From positions 1-52,418 of the IMG/VR virus record IMGVR_UViG_3300036846_000061: a stretch of DNA of 52,418 bases. One strand, given 5' to 3'. Source of the stretch: a virus. This document shows, one piece after another, positions 3,135-42,957 of this stretch; the stretch's first letter is position 1; each line of letters begins with the position of its first letter. Both the position numbers and the translations under genes were made by a program. The notes beneath the pieces are model-generated. The model ran no database searches, was not told where the DNA came from, and saw nothing but the letters and a program-made list of their open reading frames with translations.

Positions 3135-4225
3135 TGGTAACACGATATGATGTTATTGCAGTAAAGGCTGAAGTATCCAAGGAAGGTTGGATACGTGATA
3201 GGCCAGTCATTACTAGATCAGGCATCTTTGAATATAGAACCGCAGACGGAAAGATCAGAAAAGAATACAGGCCTGATAGTGAAGTATTCTCGGATACAAG
3301 TCTTGCTACGGCTAATGGGATACCTGTTACTGATAGCCATCGTGGTTTGGTTGACAGTAAGAATGTTGATGGCATTATCGGAACAGTTACCAGTAATGGC
3401 ATTAAAGATGAAGCCAATGTTTTGGCAGATGTTATCATCCATAACCCGTCACGTCTAGGCGACAAGCGTGAATTGTCTCTTGGTTATGAATGTGACATCG
3501 ATGAGACGCCAGGAGAATATAACGGTCAACGATATGATTGTGTACAAAAGAATATAATATACAATCACCTCGCGGCTGTAAAGAAAGGACGTGCCGGTAA
3601 TGCTAGACTGAGGCTTGACTCTAACGATGCCATTATTGGCACTTTTCAAATGGAGACACCTATGGAACCTACCACTAAGCTCGTTACAATTAGGCTCGAT
3701 GGCATCGACTATCAAGCCTCGCCTGAGATCAGTAATGCTTTGAATAAAGAGCGGGAAGCATTGGCTGCTCTACAGAAACGATTTGATACTGTAGAGGCTG
3801 AGCGTGATACGCTCAAAAGCACTACTGCAAACTTTGATAAAGAACTTAAGGCTGCGCGCGAGGCTGGTCGCGCTGTCGTCAAAGTTAGGCTTGACCTTGA
3901 AGATGTAGCTCGTCAGCATAAAGTAAAGTTTGATGACGATGATACTGATCAAGTAATCAAGACTAATGTTTTGGGCAAGCTTCGTCCAGAACTAAAGTTG
4001 GATGGTAAGTCAGAGGACTATATTGATTCTGCTTTCGATCTGACTATGGAAGCCAATAAAGATAAGCAAAAGAAAGTAGTCAATCAACTTTCTAGGTTTG
4101 ACAAAGCTGCACCTTCTGGCGATAATAATGTAACAGAAATGGGAGGTGCTGGCGCGGCTAGAGCGAGATACCTTGCTCGTTTGCGTGGAGAAAAGACTGA
4201 AGATGGCGGTGGTAAAGCCGCATAA
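3134..4225 (+). CDS. DUF2213 capsid maturation protease with scaffold-like tail
   Basis: This 363-residue protein matches the DUF2213 pattern in its N-terminal half: YDVIAVKAEVSKEGW, VTDSHRGLVD (about 75-84) and ELSLGYECDID (about 112-122). In this family the N-terminal part is a predicted prohead protease, with the histidine in TDSH and the serine in ELSLGY as likely catalytic residues. The second half, from about residue 190, is charged and coiled-coil-like (KEREALAALQKRF, KSTTANFDKELKAA), as expected for an internal scaffold. It lies just before the cement and major capsid genes. Confidence 0.82.
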   Translation: MVTRYDVIAVKAEVSKEGWIRDRPVITRSGIFEYRTADGKIRKEYRPDSEVFSDTSLATANGIPVTDSHRGLVDSKNVDGIIGTVTSNGIKDEANVLADVIIHNPSRLGDKRELSLGYECDIDETPGEYNGQRYDCVQKNIIYNHLAAVKKGRAGNARLRLDSNDAIIGTFQMETPMEPTTKLVTIRLDGIDYQASPEISNALNKEREALAALQKRFDTVEAERDTLKSTTANFDKELKAAREAGRAVVKVRLDLEDVARQHKVKFDDDDTDQVIKTNVLGKLRPELKLDGKSEDYIDSAFDLTMEANKDKQKKVVNQLSRFDKAAPSGDNNVTEMGGAGAARARYLARLRGEKTEDGGGKAA

Positions 4226-4257
4226 CTAGATTATAGTTTTGGTCAAGGAGTAAGCAA

Positions 4258-4800
4258 ATGAGTGATCGCGCTCAAGAACGTCGTGACGATCGGGCTGGCC
4301 CTGAGCAGCAGGCTTATCAGCCATATGACTCTGCTACTTTCTTTTCAGTTGGTTTTCCTGGAATGAAAAGTACAGCTATGGATGATAATGTCGAGAGTTG
4401 GCCTTGTGGAACTGAGTCTGATTTCGGAACCGTAGTGACTAAAACTGTTGGTCCTACTGGATCGCTTCTAGTAGAGAGTGGTGGCACTGGAGATGTTGCT
4501 GGCATCGCTCTACATGATCACATCATCGCTACATACGGTCATTACTCTCAAGGAATGGCCGTATCAGTAATGACTCGCGGTCGTGTATGGTGTGCAGTTG
4601 ATGGTGCTGGCACTGGAATTACTTATGGTGCTCCTGCCAGTTTCAATCCGGCAAACGGCAAACTAAGTGCTTCTGGAACTGCTGTTCCTAATTCATCGTT
4701 CAGAGGAATGGTGAATGGCTTCTACGATATGCTCACAGGAACAACAATTAATATTGTTGAGGTTGAGCTACACTATCCATTTGCTGTAGCAGGTCCGTAA
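4258..4800 (+). CDS. Capsid cement/decoration protein (DUF2190-like)
   Basis: A 180-residue protein rich in beta-type Gly/Thr/Val stretches with VAGIALHDHIIA and YSQGMAVSVMTRGRVWCAV near the middle, a pattern seen in structural cement proteins of this head type. Cement proteins sit on the outside of the expanded capsid and stabilise it. The strong ribosome site AAGGAG lies nine bases before ATG 4258. It comes right before the major capsid gene, the usual place. The N-terminal 20 residues are very hydrophilic. Confidence 0.7.
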   Translation: MSDRAQERRDDRAGPEQQAYQPYDSATFFSVGFPGMKSTAMDDNVESWPCGTESDFGTVVTKTVGPTGSLLVESGGTGDVAGIALHDHIIATYGHYSQGMAVSVMTRGRVWCAVDGAGTGITYGAPASFNPANGKLSASGTAVPNSSFRGMVNGFYDMLTGTTINIVEVELHYPFAVAGP

Positions 4801-8705: not shown

Positions 8706-9298
8706 TCCCTAATCTTTGGCAACTAACAGACTATACAGTTAATACTGTAGGCAAGAAAGGTGTCGAGGTTATCTGGTCGTATCAAAATGCAACTAGAATG
8801 GATAAGCCATACATTGTTCTAGACTATACAAATAATGATATTCCTGATCACGAATGGTATAGCGATGTCGATGTTGAGGGTAATAGAACACTAGCATCTT
8901 GGAGAAAAGCTACTGTAGATATGCAATTCTATTGTGGCCCTGACTCTATGAAGGTAGCTAATTATGTAGCTATGATGTTCTCTACTGAGAAGATATTAGA
9001 CAAAGAAATGGAACTAAATGTATCTGTAGGTAGTCGCTTGTTCTTTTCGCGTATGCCCGCTATGCTTAACAATTCACAATATGAAGAAAGAGCAATATAT
9101 CAATTTGATTTCTATTATACTGAAGAGCTAGAGGAATGGGTTAGCTGGATTGAAGCTACTGAAATTCACGGCGTATATACTGGTTCTTTGACCGAACTTA
9201 CTTGCGATGAACTAATTGATAGTGGACATATTACTGATTGGGATGAATATACTACTGGTTGGGATAATGGCGAAACAGTTTGGGACTATAAGGAATGA
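8702..9298 (+). CDS. Tail terminator / neck protein (LIC_12616-like)
   Basis: A 198-residue protein. The first 150 residues, with KPYIVLDYTN near residue 34, match the type of neck-terminator protein that precedes the sheath gene in DUF3383-sheath phages. The start is TTG 8702, which overlaps the preceding TGA by four bases (TTGA), an unusual start set by that coupling. The last 50 residues are acidic and Thr/Asp/Trp-rich, with two partly repeated blocks (ITDWDEYTTGWDNG). Confidence 0.62.
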   Translation: MIPNLWQLTDYTVNTVGKKGVEVIWSYQNATRMDKPYIVLDYTNNDIPDHEWYSDVDVEGNRTLASWRKATVDMQFYCGPDSMKVANYVAMMFSTEKILDKEMELNVSVGSRLFFSRMPAMLNNSQYEERAIYQFDFYYTEELEEWVSWIEATEIHGVYTGSLTELTCDELIDSGHITDWDEYTTGWDNGETVWDYKE

Positions 9299-37978: not shown

Positions 37979-38086
37979 TGTTTCCATTCCTTTCTAGGCC
38001 GTATATACGGAGCGTATATACGCTCGTAGATACCCAGCAGTGCTGGCGGAATAGGCGCCAGGAGTAAATGTCCTGGGCCCATTCCG
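37979..38086 (-). promoter_or_regulatory. Two-hairpin leader, copy 1, with two CGTATATACG palindromes
   Basis: On the minus strand, GGAATGGG (38085-38078) pairs with CCTATTCC (38055-38048) around a motif copy (38056-38064). A second hairpin CCAGCACTGCTGG follows (38046-38034), then two palindromes CGTATATACG (38013-38022, 38000-38009), and CTAGAAAGGA as ribosome site. It begins at the stop codon of the upstream gene. The same order of elements is found before four other genes. Confidence 0.78.
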
Positions 38087-38299
38087 TCAAGATTGCGGTA
38101 AATACATTAATCCTTTCACCGTTACATTAAAGTAAGCAGGTAATGGATTACCTTTGCCGTATACTTTAACTTGCAAAGTTAGTTCATTTACAATAGACAC
38201 TTCAAGCCTTTGATCTCGCAACTGAAACTCTTTAGTATTAGATAAAGCGTGATGACAAATGTTTCGTATCAATAGCTTTTCTGGATTAGGTTTCCTCAT
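38087..38299 (-). CDS. Hypothetical protein, 70 aa
   Basis: A small protein beginning MRKPNPEKLLIRNICHH, likely a short beta-rich fold (LEVSIVNELTLQVKVYG). It follows the 74-aa zinc-ribbon gene by two bases. GGAG lies upstream of ATG 38299. Unknown function. Its stop is the first base of leader copy 1. Confidence 0.65.
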   Translation of the reverse strand: MRKPNPEKLLIRNICHHALSNTKEFQLRDQRLEVSIVNELTLQVKVYGKGNPLPAYFNVTVKGLMYLPQS

Positions 38300-38301
38300 C
38301 G

Positions 38302-38526
38302 CTATTGTTCTCCATCGTGACCGACTGGTTTGGGCTCTTGTATTGTATAAGTCAATATGGCATTGTCATCATTCATATCTGTTATCCATCCTTTTACTGC
38401 AGGATAACAGAACTTGCCACATTCAGGACAATACATCGGTAGTCTTGGATTAACCCAACATAGTAATACATGACAACAATCCATATTCAATAATCTGAAA
38501 TGGACACGTTGCATTTCCTTAGGCAT
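38302..38526 (-). CDS. Zinc-ribbon-like protein, 74 aa
   Basis: A 74-residue protein with CCHVLLCW and YCPECGKFCYP, two knuckles suited to bind zinc. The N-terminus MPKEMQRVHF overlaps the preceding gene by eight bases. ATG 38526 has GGAG upstream. It could act as a small adaptor or inhibitor of a host protein. No family recognised. Confidence 0.65.
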   Translation of the reverse strand: MPKEMQRVHFRLLNMDCCHVLLCWVNPRLPMYCPECGKFCYPAVKGWITDMNDDNAILTYTIQEPKPVGHDGEQ

Positions 38527-38779
38527 ATTTGGGCTCCAGTTTACCTTCAACCAAGTAAGATACATCAGCGATCTTGTATTTATACTTCACTCCCTTATTG
38601 GTAGAATTATGATGGATGCCTATTTTGGTAAGCATTAGACCACCAGGCATTACAACAACATCAGGAGGCGAGTCAACCCACCTCAAGTTCACCAATTCTA
38701 GTTTATGTTGAAGTTTATCGGATGGCTTCGCTGATGGATCTTCAACGATGAGGGTGAATACCACCATATTGTCTTCCAT
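38519..38779 (-). CDS. Hypothetical protein, 86 aa
   Basis: An 86-residue protein MEDNMVVFTLIVEDPSAKPS, beta-rich, with the conserved-looking TKIGIHHNSTNKGVKYKY near the C-terminus. The start ATG 38779 directly follows leader copy 2; a longer frame reaching into the leader is rejected since the leader is noncoding in other copies. No family recognised. Confidence 0.68.
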   Translation of the reverse strand: MEDNMVVFTLIVEDPSAKPSDKLQHKLELVNLRWVDSPPDVVVMPGGLMLTKIGIHHNSTNKGVKYKYKIADVSYLVEGKLEPKYA

Positions 38780-38862
38780 TGTTCCGTCCTTTCTAGACCC
38801 AGCATCAGTGCTGGCGGAATAGGCTACCAGGGTTATTCTCCTGGCGCCCATTCCGTCAAGAC
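38780..38862 (-). promoter_or_regulatory. Two-hairpin leader, copy 2
   Basis: Same element as copy 1: GGAATGGG (38854-38847) pairs with CCTATTCC (38823-38816) around a motif copy (38838-38846), then the hairpin CCAGCACTGATGCTGG (38814-38799), then CTAGAAAGGA before ATG 38779. CCAGG and CCTGG within the first hairpin extend its stem. No CGTATATACG is present here. Confidence 0.78.
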
Positions 38863-39036
38863 TCATACCGATGGTCTATGCATCTTATCGTTGACTTGAG
38901 TAATTTCATCCAAGTCTAATCGTTTTATTTCAAGTTCTAATTCTTTGATCTTTTGATCTTGTTTCTTTACAATCTTCTCTAGTCGCTTCAATCTTTCCGA
39001 TAGCGTAGGTTGTTTCTTCTGTGGCGGCTTCCTCAT
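38863..39036 (-). CDS. Coiled-coil microprotein, 57 aa
   Basis: A 57-residue basic protein MRKPPQKKQPTLSERLKRLE with a continuous coiled coil (residues 12-45, with KDQ.IKELELEIKRL heptads). AGGAG lies six bases before ATG 39036. Its stop is directly followed by leader copy 2. It probably forms a dimer and could bind nucleic acid with its basic N-terminus. Function unknown. Confidence 0.72.
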   Translation of the reverse strand: MRKPPQKKQPTLSERLKRLEKIVKKQDQKIKELELEIKRLDLDEITQVNDKMHRPSV

Positions 39037-39047
39037 TATTGCTCCTG

Positions 39048-39473
39048 TTACTTGACGTTAAAGTCCAGTAGCATACGCATTAATGACTTCGCTTGTTCAA
39101 TAGGTAGTGTAGCATTGAATTGTATCTGAGCCGTATTGTCGTTCAATATCTTGAAGAACAAAGGATCAGGTTTAGATTGAACTTGCCTAATCTTTCCAGG
39201 ACTATACTTGACGATTGCAGTTGAACGTGCCAACGACTTTGCTTCCTTTGGCATTAGCATTGTTTCTGTAACGCCAAAGATTTGGCATAGTTTCTTGCGA
39301 AACTCTTTTGTTGGCGCTGTTGTAGCTTTCAACCAAGGATATACTGTTGTGCGAAGCCTATCTATGCCCAACAATTCATTGAGTTGCATTACTGTCATAT
39401 CGCGCTTACTCATTTCACTTCTTATTAGTGAAGCGATATGAGCATACTCTGGCTTAACTTTAGCTGTTGCCAT
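39048..39473 (-). CDS. Cro/CI-type HTH regulator
   Basis: A 141-residue protein with an Xre-type helix-turn-helix (about 17-70: MSKRDMTVMQLNELLGIDRL, then TTVYPWLKATTAPTKEFRKK). The C-terminal half is not a peptidase-like CI domain, so it resembles a simple repressor. It is a candidate to bind the CGTATATACG palindromes around it. Its start is two bases after the previous stop. Confidence 0.75.
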   Translation of the reverse strand: MATAKVKPEYAHIASLIRSEMSKRDMTVMQLNELLGIDRLRTTVYPWLKATTAPTKEFRKKLCQIFGVTETMLMPKEAKSLARSTAIVKYSPGKIRQVQSKPDPLFFKILNDNTAQIQFNATLPIEQAKSLMRMLLDFNVK

Positions 39474-39474
39474 G

Positions 39475-39750
39475 TTACGCGACCTTACCTTTGATGAGCC
39501 TGAAGCGACTCACCACTGGCGTCTCACTCTTTTGCACTAGAGTATACCAAGCATCGCGATAAGCGACAGTTATAGTTTTGAAGCCATACTTATGCTTATC
39601 GCCCTGCTTAGAGGTCCAACACCATCCGGTCAGCATACGCAACTCATCCTTACCTCGATGATCGTTCCATCGCTTGGTCTCAGCTACATTGATGTAGTAT
39701 ATACGTGCTACCGCATCAACATCAGCAATTATGTTACTTGGTAACCACAT
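39475..39750 (-). CDS. Hypothetical protein, 91 aa
   Basis: A 91-residue basic, Trp-rich protein starting MWLPSNIIADVDAVARIYYI. The stretch TGWCWTSKQGDKHKYGFKT is strongly hydrophilic. It follows leader copy 3. The leader-aligned ATG at 39757 opens only a seven-codon frame (MENVVTK), so ATG 39750 starts the gene. No family recognised. Confidence 0.65.
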   Translation of the reverse strand: MWLPSNIIADVDAVARIYYINVAETKRWNDHRGKDELRMLTGWCWTSKQGDKHKYGFKTITVAYRDAWYTLVQKSETPVVSRFRLIKGKVA

Positions 39751-39869
39751 TTTCCATTGCTCCTGTCCTTTCTAGGCTCCAGCACTATCACTGGCGGAAT
39801 AGGCCACCAAGATGTTACTCTCGGCGCCCATTCCGTAAGCGATAGTATAGCGCGTTCTTAGCTCGCAGT
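39751..39869 (-). promoter_or_regulatory. Two-hairpin leader, copy 3
   Basis: GGAATGGG (39834-39827) pairs with CCTATTCC (39803-39796). The hairpin CCAGTGATAGTGCTGG (39794-39779) follows, then CTAGAAAGGACAGGAG before the start. The inner sequence GGCGCCGAGAG has lost the iterated motif, but the opposite arm changed to TCTTGG, so pairing is kept. Confidence 0.75.
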
Positions 39870-40175
39870 CTAGCTGCTACAGTCTTCATAGCCAGCATTA
39901 GGCTCTTTTGTTGTCCAAGTATTGTCCACACGATTACAGGCAAATACTGTGAAGTTCGTATCATCCATTATAATGATACGATCTATATCATCATTAGCGA
40001 GACTATAAGATACAGCCTGTAACGCAGTCATCATATCTGCGTTCTTTACAGTATACTCATAGGCTCCGTCCAGATGATATAGAACAACAGAGAAGGTATC
40101 AGGCATATTGTTCTCCAACCAATATTGTACTGCCCACGGAACGATTGAGTTATGATGTTTCGTCCAGCGGCTCAT
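39870..40175 (-). CDS. Hypothetical protein, 101 aa
   Basis: A 101-residue protein MSRWTKHHNSIVPWAVQYWL, with a beta-alpha-beta look (FSVVLYHLDGAYEYTVKNAD, IDRIIIMDDTNFTVFAC). ATG 40175 overlaps the preceding gene's end by 26 bases and is preferred to an upstream extension. It may be a small regulator; no family recognised. Confidence 0.65.
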   Translation of the reverse strand: MSRWTKHHNSIVPWAVQYWLENNMPDTFSVVLYHLDGAYEYTVKNADMMTALQAVSYSLANDDIDRIIIMDDTNFTVFACNRVDNTWTTKEPNAGYEDCSS

Positions 40176-40326
40176 CGTGCCAGTAATTAGGGTCCGTGTG
40201 GACATCGTCACGAAACATCTTAGCTTTGCTAGGCCAGCAAGCCTCGCAGGCGAAACAAAGAAAGATTTGTCGCGCATCATAATGTGGTGTGCGATGTAGC
40301 TTGCTCCCACAATTACATTCGTCCAT
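40150..40326 (-). CDS. Cys-rich microprotein, 58 aa
   Basis: A 58-residue protein MDECNCGSKLHRTPHYDARQ with CNC, then FLCFACEACWPSK: five cysteines in pairs, a likely zinc site. ATG 40326 directly follows leader copy 4. The frame could be read further upstream through the leader, but that part matches noncoding leader sequence elsewhere. Confidence 0.68.
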   Translation of the reverse strand: MDECNCGSKLHRTPHYDARQIFLCFACEACWPSKAKMFRDDVHTDPNYWHDEPLDETS

Positions 40327-40414
40327 TGTTCCTGTCCTTTCTAAGCCCAGCACATCGCTGGCGGAATAGGCGGCCAGAAGTATTCTCCTGGCGCCCATTC
40401 CGTTAGCCTTGCTG
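40327..40414 (-). promoter_or_regulatory. Two-hairpin leader, copy 4
   Basis: GGAATGGG (40401-40394) pairs with CCTATTCC (40370-40363), with a long inner stem of GGCGCCAGGAG against CTTCTGGCCGCC. The second hairpin CCAGCGATGTGCTGG is at 40361-40347, then TTAGAAAGGACAGG before ATG 40326. The upstream part (AGCAAGGCTAACGGAA) is shared with copy 5. Confidence 0.78.
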
Positions 40415-40486
40415 TTATGTCTTCCAAATTAACCAAAGAGCAAGTAACCCTATGGCTAGCACTGCAACCCAATTTATACTGATCAC
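40415..40486 (-). CDS. Single-pass membrane microprotein, 23 aa
   Basis: A short frame: V(M)ISINWVAVLAIGLLALWL, then IWKT. The GTG start overlaps the stop of the preceding gene by four bases (GTGA), the standard coupling in this genome, and the product is one clean membrane helix with a Lys at the end. It ends exactly where leader copy 4 begins. Function unknown. Confidence 0.6.
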   Translation of the reverse strand: MISINWVAVLAIGLLALWLIWKT

Positions 40487-40701
40487 AACTCATACTCGTC
40501 ACAGGGTTCATATGCATCATCGTGAATAGCGAATGGCTCCATGCCTTGCTCTTCACGTTTGATGTTGATTATGTTCATACAATTTCTGCACACAGGCTCT
40601 TTCTCACCAGTAAGTGCACGTGTTGATGGCACTCGCACTGGATTGAAACTGAACTGCTGACGACAGCAGACACAGTAACCCATACAAAACACATATCCCA
40701 T
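40483..40701 (-). CDS. Zinc-ribbon-like protein, 72 aa
   Basis: A 72-residue protein with two Cys knuckles: CMGYCVCC (residues 6-13) and CRNC (38-41), typical of a small zinc ribbon. The tail is acidic. ATG 40701 directly follows leader copy 5. A host-interaction role is conceivable. No family recognised. Confidence 0.7.
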   Translation of the reverse strand: MGYVFCMGYCVCCRQQFSFNPVRVPSTRALTGEKEPVCRNCMNIINIKREEQGMEPFAIHDDAYEPCDEYEL

Positions 40702-40881
40702 TGTTCCTGTCCTTTCTAGATCGTAATTGACTCCCACACTTTGTTCTCAAAAGAGCCCAATCCCATATTTGGGGACCATTGGGTAAAGCGTGGTCATAAC
40801 GTCAATCCAGCAGAACGCTGGCGGAAAGCGTATATACGCTAGTATATTCGATCGTATATACGCTTTCCGTTAGCCTTGCTG
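40702..40881 (-). promoter_or_regulatory. Two-hairpin leader, copy 5, variant with CGTATATACG in the stem
   Basis: Here the first hairpin is rebuilt: GGAAAGCGTATATACG (40823-40838) and its exact inverse (40853-40868) give a 16-bp stem that holds two CGTATATACG palindromes. The second hairpin CCAGCGTTCTGCTGG (40821-40807) and CTAGAAAGGACAGG remain, but about 65 further bases (40740-40806) lie between them. A stem kept in spite of changed sequence points to RNA structure. Confidence 0.75.
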
Positions 40882-41160
40882 TTATCCTGCATCTTTTAAG
40901 TATGAATTAACCAAGTCATCTGCGAAGCTAGTCGCATCCGCTCCACGATACTCACCGCTATGATGGATTAGATACTCGACAAAATTGTCTTCATCCTTTT
41001 CCATCACAACGATATAATAGAGCGGATTGTTCTTATCAGGCGACAAATCGAACGTCATCCTGGTAAGACTGATCGCATCATCGAGCGATCCACGCCAGCC
41101 CCAATTGCCTTGGTTCTCAATTGGATAGTCGCAGATGAACTCTGTGAGTTTATATTCCAT
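40882..41160 (-). CDS. Hypothetical protein, 92 aa
   Basis: A 92-residue acidic protein starting MEYKLTEFICDYPIENQGNW, with an alternating beta/alpha pattern (NPLYYIVVMEKDEDNFVEYL). ATG 41160 forms a TGATG overlap with the gene before; an in-frame GTG lies three bases earlier. AGGAG precedes it. Unknown function. Its stop touches leader copy 5. Confidence 0.68.
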   Translation of the reverse strand: MEYKLTEFICDYPIENQGNWGWRGSLDDAISLTRMTFDLSPDKNNPLYYIVVMEKDEDNFVEYLIHHSGEYRGADATSFADDLVNSYLKDAG

Positions 41161-41348: not shown

Positions 41349-41481
41349 TGTTCCATTCCTTTCTAAGCTTGTGCTTTCCTCTGCGTTAGGGACTGGGAAC
41401 CCGGTATATACTCGCGTATATACGCCGCATTAAAGCTAGAGCGCCAGGAGTTATATTTGTTCTCCTGGCGCTCTATGCAAG
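41349..41481 (-). promoter_or_regulatory. Divergent leader with CGTATATACG and 13-bp motif hairpin
   Basis: AGAGCGCCAGGAG (41438-41450) is exactly inverted at 41462-41474, a 13-bp stem with an 11-base loop made of two motif copies, right behind the stop of the 163-aa gene. It is a likely terminator or 3' end. One CGTATATACG lies at 41415-41424, and TTAGAAAGGA precedes ATG 41348. Confidence 0.7.
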
Positions 41482-41973: not shown

Positions 41974-42057
41974 AATATGTAGCCTTTCTAGGTTTGGGTC
42001 TGCGTTTTGTTTTCTGGGCTTCCCACCAGCACGTATATACGAATGTATAGACGCGGC
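41974..42057 (-). promoter_or_regulatory. Leader of the 163-aa gene with CGTATATACG
   Basis: It holds CTAGAAAGG just before the start and one palindrome CGTATATACG (42032-42041), followed by a degenerate copy (GTATAGACG). The two-hairpin element is missing. The gene starts after a long gene-free region, so the first promoter of this operon part may lie here or upstream. Confidence 0.55.
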
Positions 42058-42957
42058 CGCATTAAACAACGTGTACAATCCCGCCAATGGCTACATACAC
42101 GCTGCCCCTAGAAAGGAACAACGGATCATCCAGCGGTATATGGGAAAGTATATACGCATCCATATTCGCTCGATGTAGACCAGATTAACTATATATCATA
42201 CTCACATACCGGCTTGCCGCCCTAGGGGCGCGTATCCTGCCCGCTCTAGTGGCTTCCCGTATGCTTTCGTATATACCGTTTCAAAGAATGGCGGATGTAA
42301 GGAAAAATCGGCCTAGGCGCGACCCAACTAGCTGGTCTGGGCTGGCGCTTTCGTCTAGCGCGCCAGGCAATCTTGACGATTACCTGCCCTTATCGCTTCC
42401 CTGACTACCCTGGCGGAACCTAGTGGGTTCCTATGGGCGCCTAGGCTCTAGCGCCTAGCCTAGTGGCCTACCCTACGGGGAGGCGCCTAGGCGACGCTAG
42501 GGAAGCTCTAGAGGTGCCCTACGCGGGCGCCTCCGAGCCTCCGAGATGTCCTATTCTCCTGTCAAACAACGCGAGCAGAAATTCGTTACGGCCCCGATCG
42601 GGCTGCCCTCTAGACCACCGATCTAGGGATAGTCTAGCCTATCCCATCTTGGAAGTAAAGCCCAAACTTATGGGGTTCAGTCTTTTTATTTAGACGGTCT
42701 CAAGGACCGCTCCTGGCGCCAGGAGGAAAAGACCTGCCATTTCCTGGGCCTAGGATGCATGCTAGGGTGGTTCTAGTCTTGGAAGGCTAGGGTTATGCAG
42801 CCCGAAACACGTTCGCGTTTGTTCTCCCCCTGTTCCCGTTACGTTCTGCCCAATGATTTCAATGACTTACGGGCCATGAACGCTAAATTTTTGGTAATCT
42901 GTAACGCAGGCTACTGACTGGTAGTTCTCTGTTTGTTCTCGTTTGATGACCAAAAAT
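42058..42957. other. Gene-free, CTAG-rich region (about 900 bases)
   Basis: No convincing gene is seen on either strand. The region is GC-richer than the rest and has about 20 CTAG sites between 42180 and 42800, many as CCTAGG or GCCTAGGC (for example 42441-42500). It includes a 16-bp palindrome of the iterated motif (42710-42725). It could hold an origin, a site for DNA partition or recombination, or a long leader RNA for the small-gene operon. A small frame at 42463-42693 has odd, Arg/Pro-rich content and was not accepted. Confidence 0.6.
42710..42725. repeat. Perfect 16-bp palindrome of two motif copies
   Basis: CTCCTGGCGCCAGGAG is two CGCCAGGAG copies in opposite orientation, sharing two bases. 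It lies in the gene-free region. A related 14-bp palindrome, CTCCTGGCCAGGAG, is inside the SSB-like gene (35753-35766). Confidence 0.9.

Follow-up and report, generated by a model that had tools for sequence, protein, structure and literature searches.

Structured RNA leaders in a phage gene array share their slot with twister and hammerhead ribozymes

Leaders in the gene array

The window analysed here is a single virus record of IMG/VR, IMGVR_UViG_3300036846_000061, over its whole length of 52,418 bases. Its minus-strand genes span approximately 44.3 to 25.6 kb and include an array of mostly small genes, which lies between a non-coding stretch (about 42.1-42.9 kb) and replication genes (DNA polymerase, helicase, exonuclease and Pam3-like proteins). 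Five leaders of this array, all on the minus strand (window 37979-40890), belong to a conserved RNA structure that is predicted to alternate between two folds. In the window and its relatives, the slot occupied by this two-state RNA is held in other units by twister or hammerhead ribozymes, also in front of homologous genes, which points to the cutting of one long phage message into separate messages, one per gene. None of the array genes matches Pfam above the cut-off, and no near DNA match to a named phage was found, the identity of the DNA polymerase to those of named phages being at most about 40%. Downstream of the genes at 43-44 kb, and immediately ahead of the non-coding region where the array begins, is a strong terminator-like hairpin with a T-run (42983-42958, minus strand).

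Each leader, read as RNA, consists of stem 1, an immediately adjoining hairpin 2, a ribosome-binding site (RBS) module (C/TUAGAAAGGA) and then the start codon. Stem 1 is GGAATGGG/CCTATTCC in copies 1-4; copy 5 carries instead a different, paired stem of about 17 bp (CGGAAAGCGTATATACG/CGTATATACGCTTTCCG), in agreement with the first-pass annotation, which had described this stem as wholly replaced. The second hairpin and the shared sequence before the start, also reported there, are present with variants: hairpin 2 is CCAGC..GCTGG (CCAGT in copy 3) and the RBS module is CTAGAAAGGA in four copies and TTAGAAAGGA in copy 4. This module extends as CTAGAAAGGAATGGAACAATGG, near-identical across these phages. 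Genes follow all five leaders, as had been claimed, but that of copy 1 is not small (335-338 amino acids). The strand preceding stem 1 is called strand a below.

38034-38105, minus strand: copy 1; strand a ends in TTGA (38090-38087), stem 1 38086-38047, hairpin 2 (CCAGCACTGCTGG) 38046-38034
Between hairpin 2 and RBS, minus strand: extra hairpin of copy 1, GTATATAC
37988-37997, minus strand: RBS module of copy 1, CTAGAAAGGA, before the 335/338-amino-acid gene (start 37978 or 37987)
38799-38880, minus strand: copy 2; strand a (CATCGGT...TTGA) to 38856, stem 1 38855-38815, hairpin 2 38814-38799
38787-38796, minus strand: RBS module of copy 2, CTAGAAAGGA, gene 38779-38519
39779-39850, minus strand: copy 3; CTTA 39839-39836, stem 1 39835-39795, hairpin 2 39794-39779
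39846-39838, minus strand: strand a of copy 3, ACTATCGCT, pairing with AGTGATAGT
39766-39775, minus strand: RBS module of copy 3, CTAGAAAGGA, gene 39750-39475
40347-40420, minus strand: copy 4; strand a (CAGCAAGGCTAA) to 40403, stem 1 40402-40362, hairpin 2 40361-40347
40335-40344, minus strand: RBS module of copy 4, TTAGAAAGGA, gene 40326-40150
40807-40890, minus strand: copy 5; strand a (CAGCAAGGCTAA) to 40870, replaced stem 1 40869-40822, hairpin 2 40821-40807
40720-40806, minus strand: extra folded insert of copy 5 with ATTGAC...GTCAAT arms, between hairpin 2 and RBS
40710-40719, minus strand: RBS module of copy 5, CTAGAAAGGA, gene 40701-40483

The search model R1 locates copies 1-5 at 38090-38034, 38859-38799, 39839-39779, 40406-40347 and 40873-40807 (E 2e-6 to 9e-14), matches that count copies and are no independent proof, as R1 was trained partly on copies that it then finds. 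The folds of all five copies are better than those of 200 dinucleotide shuffles each (z -6.1 to -7.3).

Covariation and the alternative helix

Related contigs, all metagenomic, were collected through relatives of the DNA polymerase, whose search gave 26 loci, and through sequence pattern searches; the 338-amino-acid gene used as a query found no relatives. This yielded 35 parsed copies of the two-state leader from 12 virus records, window included. Matches to a stringent pattern among viral contigs are confined to the phage group of the window. A loose pattern hits at least 80 stretches, and those outside the group look like chance once stem 1 is inspected. In the genome collection, the exact RBS module is absent and the stem pattern has three matches, all without hairpin 2 or RBS.

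In stem 1, pairing at the ten outer positions reaches 93% over 26 distinct rows, compared with 61% in shuffles (maximum 67%), and every one of these ten pairs shows two-sided changes; in hairpin 2, pairing reaches 98.5%, and four of the five pairs change on both sides. The 24-row MAFFT alignment has 99.3% of its cells paired, compared with 88.6% for shuffles and no more than 48.7% for slid versions; two-sided changes occur at 10 of 13 pairs (0/500 shuffles). The shuffle controls overstate independence, the copies being kin, and the slid controls and the partner permutation given below are the stronger tests. The fold computed independently from this alignment agrees with the result from the parsed rows. 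The sequence of stem 1 is free provided that it pairs. These leaders are a conserved RNA structure: the joint changes of paired bases noticed in the first-pass annotation recur as strong covariation in many more copies, and recent duplication without pairing constraint, the outcome that would have spoken against it, is ruled out by compensatory changes over the 24-26 distinct rows. No curated Rfam family reaches its gathering threshold in the window or at the two-state leader sites of relatives, which bears out the suggestion that the family is undescribed.

G-U pairs are frequent on the transcribed strand (16/24 rows at one stem-1 pair; U-G in 13/24 at one pair of the alternative helix described below). 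They would be non-pairing C-A on the opposite strand; selection therefore acts on RNA. It is accordingly most improbable that the leaders are DNA-level elements, either recombination cassette sites or protein-binding palindromes. Such elements would fit the modular units of gene plus leader and the palindromic stems, and integron attC sites also lie behind stop codons; the retained G-U pairs, the fixed RBS that follows and the RNA nature of the other occupants of the slot all argue against them. No attC box pair (R'' RYYYAAC, R' GTTRRRY) was seen by eye in the parsed copies, and no integrase was found among the window proteins scanned.

Strand a, which directly follows the upstream stop codon, is complementary to hairpin 2, with a pairing sequence that differs from copy to copy. 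From 5' to 3', the order is the upstream stop, strand a (variable P0, UUG and an invariant A), stem 1, strand b (C-CAG-P0'), strand c (CUGG) and the RBS module CUAGAAAGGAAUGGAACAAUGG; b pairs either with a, giving one long irregular hairpin, or with c, giving stem 1 plus hairpin 2. Partner pairs of a and b are GUAAC/GUUAC (L012+1905), ACUAUAG/CUAUAGU (L006+485), AGCAC/GUGCU (L017+1401), CUUGCC/GGCAAG (L007+906), CUUGCA/UGCAAG (L038+6256) and ACUAUCGCU/AGUGAUAGU (window copy 3). The a:b duplex averages -10.5 kcal/mol with the own partner and -7.5 with permuted partners across 23 non-redundant copies (z -6.4, 0/100,000). The UUG:CAG part covaries two-sidedly, as UUG/CAA in L034, GUG/CAC in L017+726 and UUA/UAG in L008+189. 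Constrained folding puts a:b and b:c at almost the same energy (a:b minus b:c averages -1.3 kcal/mol, with 26 of 35 copies within 4), and swapping strand a between copies moves the mean difference to +1.2 kcal/mol. Since a:b and hairpin 2 use one strand b, the folds are mutually exclusive, and the element has, according to these models, two nearly isoenergetic states. An H-type pseudoknot of P0 with the hairpin-2 loop was rejected: in several copies, though not in all, P0' enters strand c or leaves a linker of 0-1 nt, hence the preference for exclusive folds. The two-hairpin leader initially reported is therefore real in both its hairpins but incomplete, as strand a also pairs with hairpin 2 and the minimum-energy fold of copies 2-5 is a single extended hairpin rather than two.

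The A directly before stem 1 is invariant (26/26 distinct rows) and faces a C with which it cannot pair; the upstream stop codon does not account for it in most copies. This base and the covarying a:b helix would be left unexplained if the leaders were passive stable hairpins that shield message ends or slow nucleases, neither cutting nor switching. The very stable folds and the freedom of the stem 1 sequence are in keeping with such a role, which nevertheless appears improbable. A terminator role, among those proposed at first, is not supported: there is no U-tract after the hairpins, which are followed by N-CUAGAAAGG, and no intrinsic terminator is called on the minus strand at stem 1 or hairpin 2 of any copy. 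The put RNA of HK022-type phages, in which two adjacent hairpins act on RNA polymerase and lead to terminator read-through, has a similar two-hairpin fold; the two-state copies differ in preceding many single genes and in being exchanged with ribozymes.

The stop codon of the upstream gene lies 3-15 nt before stem 1 in 27 of the 30 copies that have a clear upstream frame of at least 45 codons (outliers 21, 37 and 68 nt; for the last, L011+960, inspection by eye shows a shorter frame that ends in the usual position). The claim that each unit starts at the upstream stop applies to window copies 1, 2, 4 and 5, within these 3-15 nt, and fails for copy 3 (37 nt). By eye, copy 4 is preceded by a mini open reading frame (ORF) of 23 codons. 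At 40416-40490 (minus strand), a tiny frame with a GTG start, which by eye encodes one membrane helix (VISINWVAVLAIGLLALWLIWKT), terminates 12 nt upstream of stem 1 of copy 4; a mini-ORF similar to this frame lies in front of L011+960. A leader peptide starting from the ATG of GGAATGGG was discarded: by eye, its frame agrees with that of the gene in copies 2 and 4 alone, it is stopped in copy 3, and the ATG is absent where stem 1 is replaced.

With the stop so placed, a ribosome that terminates there would cover strand a. The leader might thus be a translational-coupling switch that involves no cutting: a ribosome ending at the upstream stop would mask a, so that b:c forms and the RBS is in one state, whereas a:b would form and set the other state when the upstream gene is not translated. 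The two exclusive helices of near-equal energy suit this proposal. However, the RBS has no dedicated partner in either state, the ribozyme units described below, judged by eye, likewise begin immediately at the upstream stop without any need for such a role, and a ribosome sensor does not predict exchange with self-cleaving ribozymes before homologous genes. We regard the switch as somewhat unlikely, while ranking it ahead of the other alternatives.

The slot shared with ribozymes and its candidate role

Depending on the unit, the slot before module CTAGAAAGGAATGGAACAATGG holds a two-state leader, a twister-P5, a twister-P1 or a type III hammerhead. The 83 RBS-type sites of 15 records comprise 35 two-state RNAs, 24 twister-type, 9 hammerhead-type and 15 other leaders, labels that rest on sequence rules backed by Rfam model matches and by stem and core parsing. 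The last group includes window 41987 (twister-like), one unparsed two-state copy (L039+10268), five opposite-strand elements and two chance sites. In 11 of 16 records, twister-P5 scores above the Rfam cut-off, with a maximum of 56.5 bits, and twister-P1 stays below it in relatives (E down to 6e-12 per record). Eight type III hammerheads, with three stems and the CUGAUGA/GAAA core, immediately precede the module (Rfam E down to 7e-9). Two twister-P1 leaders, not members of the two-state family, stand at the head of the window array:

41373-41436, minus strand: twister-P1 ribozyme, 36.4 bits (E 6.5e-7 in a 141-base search), below the Rfam gathering threshold of 67.2; aligned with relatives; gene 41348-41160
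41992-42068, minus strand: twister-P1-like ribozyme, 24.1 bits (E 0.16); aligned with relatives; gene 41973-41482

The L034 leader of a gene homologous to the latter scores 43.1 bits with twister-P1.

Clustering of the downstream proteins reveals that leaders are exchanged before homologous genes. The nine members of the CRI-SF family are preceded by two-state RNA (four), hammerhead (one), twister (two) or other leaders (two), and the MGYV-CC family by one each of two-state RNA (window 40715), hammerhead and twister. Homologues of window gene 40701-40483 have a hammerhead-type leader in L007 and a twister-type leader in L039; the MA-VWI/MIWI family has both two-state RNA and twister leaders; the window 62-amino-acid gene has a twister and its L040 relative a hammerhead. 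The 338-amino-acid gene is preceded by two-state RNA in 8/8 cases. Gene and leader therefore behave as modules, as the cassette proposed in the first-pass annotation would. A more distant phage (L023 record, polymerase 53% identical) carries one two-state copy, several twisters and diverged start modules. In the record of the more distant phage (L129, 2520-5230), twister-P5/P1 precede several small genes with the different start module CTAGTAAATGAA...AAAATG, so that the plan of a ribozyme before a gene outlives the RBS sequence.

The two-state RNA has the same slot, RBS module and gene families as twister (RF02684 P5, RF03160 P1) and type III hammerhead (RF00008) ribozymes and, like them, is compact, folded and separates the upstream stop from the downstream RBS. 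It differs in having neither core and no Rfam match, and in consisting of helices a:b, b:c and stem 1 only; self-cleavage would be hypothetical. Neither twister model (RF03160/RF02684; strands UAAYGC, CCAAGCCC and GCAGAG) matches any two-state copy in the window or relatives at E up to 10, whereas neighbours match. The hammerhead core (CUGAUGA, GAAA, three stems and a UH cleavage site) is in none of the 35 two-state copies and in eight slot-mates. The element could nonetheless be a new class of self-cleaving ribozyme, in which the a:b fold and the invariant A opposite C beside stem 1 would form a small active site; this would be one way in which processing is done. The slot and gene families shared with two known self-cleaving classes, together with the invariant, unpairable A that the stop codon mostly does not explain, point in this direction. 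Against it stand the very few conserved unpaired bases and the lack of a match to any ribozyme family at E values as high as 10; pairing with the final G of hairpin 2 likewise accounts for the facing C. We consider a new ribozyme class unlikely.

Because the slot is common to self-cleaving ribozymes, the likely function moves from the generic protection or timing first envisaged to intercistronic processing and insulation, and exchange with self-cleaving RNAs points to a shared end, namely a separate, 5'-defined message for each gene. The two-state RNA would then be a processing and 5'-end-defining leader, exchangeable with the ribozymes, the most likely reading, to which we give an even chance. 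Its mode of action could be as follows. While the polycistronic message is made, a:b would form a long imperfect duplex that is cut, like the self-cutting twister and hammerhead leaders. Strand b, freed from a, would pair with c, so that the downstream message starts with a stable 5'-terminal hairpin right before a strong standard RBS. The products of hammerheads would start with stem I; here, b:c would cap the new 5' end, which may be why both pairings are kept. Every gene would thereby obtain its own insulated message, regardless of its upstream neighbour. We infer the cleavage, its site, the cutter and the effects on stability and translation. An RNase III-like host enzyme is favoured over the RNA itself as cutter. 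RNase III sites are long irregular duplexes, and the predicted a:b fold is a long irregular hairpin.

Several points weigh against a processing role, which is a candidate resting on a presumed cleavage step. The same slot need not imply the same chemistry, and there is one invariant unpaired base only, unlike in known ribozymes. The two folds could serve a ribosome-controlled switch, since most copies have the upstream stop inside strand a. Because strand b is common to hairpin 2 and a:b, covariation of UUG:CAG does not by itself separate a:b from b:c; the independent support for a:b is the P0 permutation test. Some copies have extra folded inserts between hairpin 2 and RBS, and the energies are model values for naked RNA.

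In phage T7, RNase III sites between early genes form long irregular intergenic hairpins that are cut to give shorter messages, as the a:b fold might be; the T7 sites are not known to have an alternative b:c hairpin. The plastid intercistronic expression element (PMC2230500) is likewise small, lies between genes and yields stable translatable monocistronic messages, as proposed here; it belongs to plant plastids, is unrelated in sequence, and its cleavage was demonstrated in vivo, that of the two-state RNA being putative. Twister and hammerhead RNAs are often near each other, and their functions in living systems were called largely speculative (PMC5408937). Pistol ribozymes lie near phage genes (PMC6154101). 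The HDV-like theta ribozymes of gut phages were proposed to process tRNAs (PMC10879173); they are also small, have a proposed link to RNA processing in tailed phages, and differ from the two-state RNA in their tRNA association and HDV-like fold.

Cluster K mycobacteriophages carry start-associated sequences (SAS) before many genes, about half with an inverted repeat upstream (extended SAS, ESAS) and with a function given as unknown (PMC3203893). The likeness is a conserved sequence just before the starts of many genes of different families. The ESAS has 17-bp imperfect inverted repeats, mostly a 4-13-bp spacer and its own consensus, and the portions of that article used here describe neither ribozymes nor an alternative helix. 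Identity with SAS/ESAS was rejected, their sequence being GGGATAGGAGCCC and the module here CTAGAAAGGAATGGAACAATGG. RiboJ, an engineered hammerhead (from sTRSV) with a 23-nt hairpin before the RBS, standardises and raises expression (PMC6206723). It shares the order of ribozyme or hairpin then RBS, and its cutting leaves a uniform 5' end with a hairpin; the two-state RNA is natural, occurs in arrays and lacks a known catalytic core. The leader parts are natural counterparts of this widely used synthetic insulator. No description of natural ribozyme-RBS cassettes in arrays was found in the literature searched, in which subscription journals were only partly covered. Several ribozyme classes and one undescribed RNA in one slot, fused to one RBS before homologous genes, make a concrete case for phage intercistronic processing and insulation, and, through their exchange, this RNA can be compared genetically with known ribozymes in front of one and the same gene.

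Further leader classes and recurrent hairpins

Other leader classes precede the same RBS. One is a long GAUCU...AGAUC hairpin interrupted by internal loops, another is of a GCAUUUGCGGCC...CUUUGCCCGAU type, and a third resembles a pseudoknot (UGCUGG/CCAGCA with UGAUCCU/AGGAUCA). They are located at L033 ~9000-9100, L045 ~180-290 and ~1100-1205, L011 ~2120-2215, L034 ~4220-4312 and L007 ~1480-1580. The L007 leader at ~255-345, before a homologue of window 40483-40701, can be read by eye as a hammerhead of type I (CUGAUGAGCCC..GGGCGAAAC..), with a weak Rfam match (E 0.004).

A further element lies on the opposite strand (window 42056-42126, plus strand): a small GC hairpin enclosed by a stem whose internal loop, AAUCCC / UAC, is conserved, with CCCTAGAAAGGAACAACGG after it. 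This element is also found in L033, L034, L035, L036, L037, L038 and L040, several having ATG for ACG and sometimes a 4-codon ORF. Palindromes of the GTATATAC type occur at window 38000-38030, 40829-40866, 41403-41425 and 42032-42052 and in loops of relatives; in several leader classes they occupy apical loops or form additional hairpins, which gives the impression of insertions. Hairpins of CGCCAGGAG/CTCCTGGCG recur likewise in stem 1, in twister-P5 and before hammerheads.

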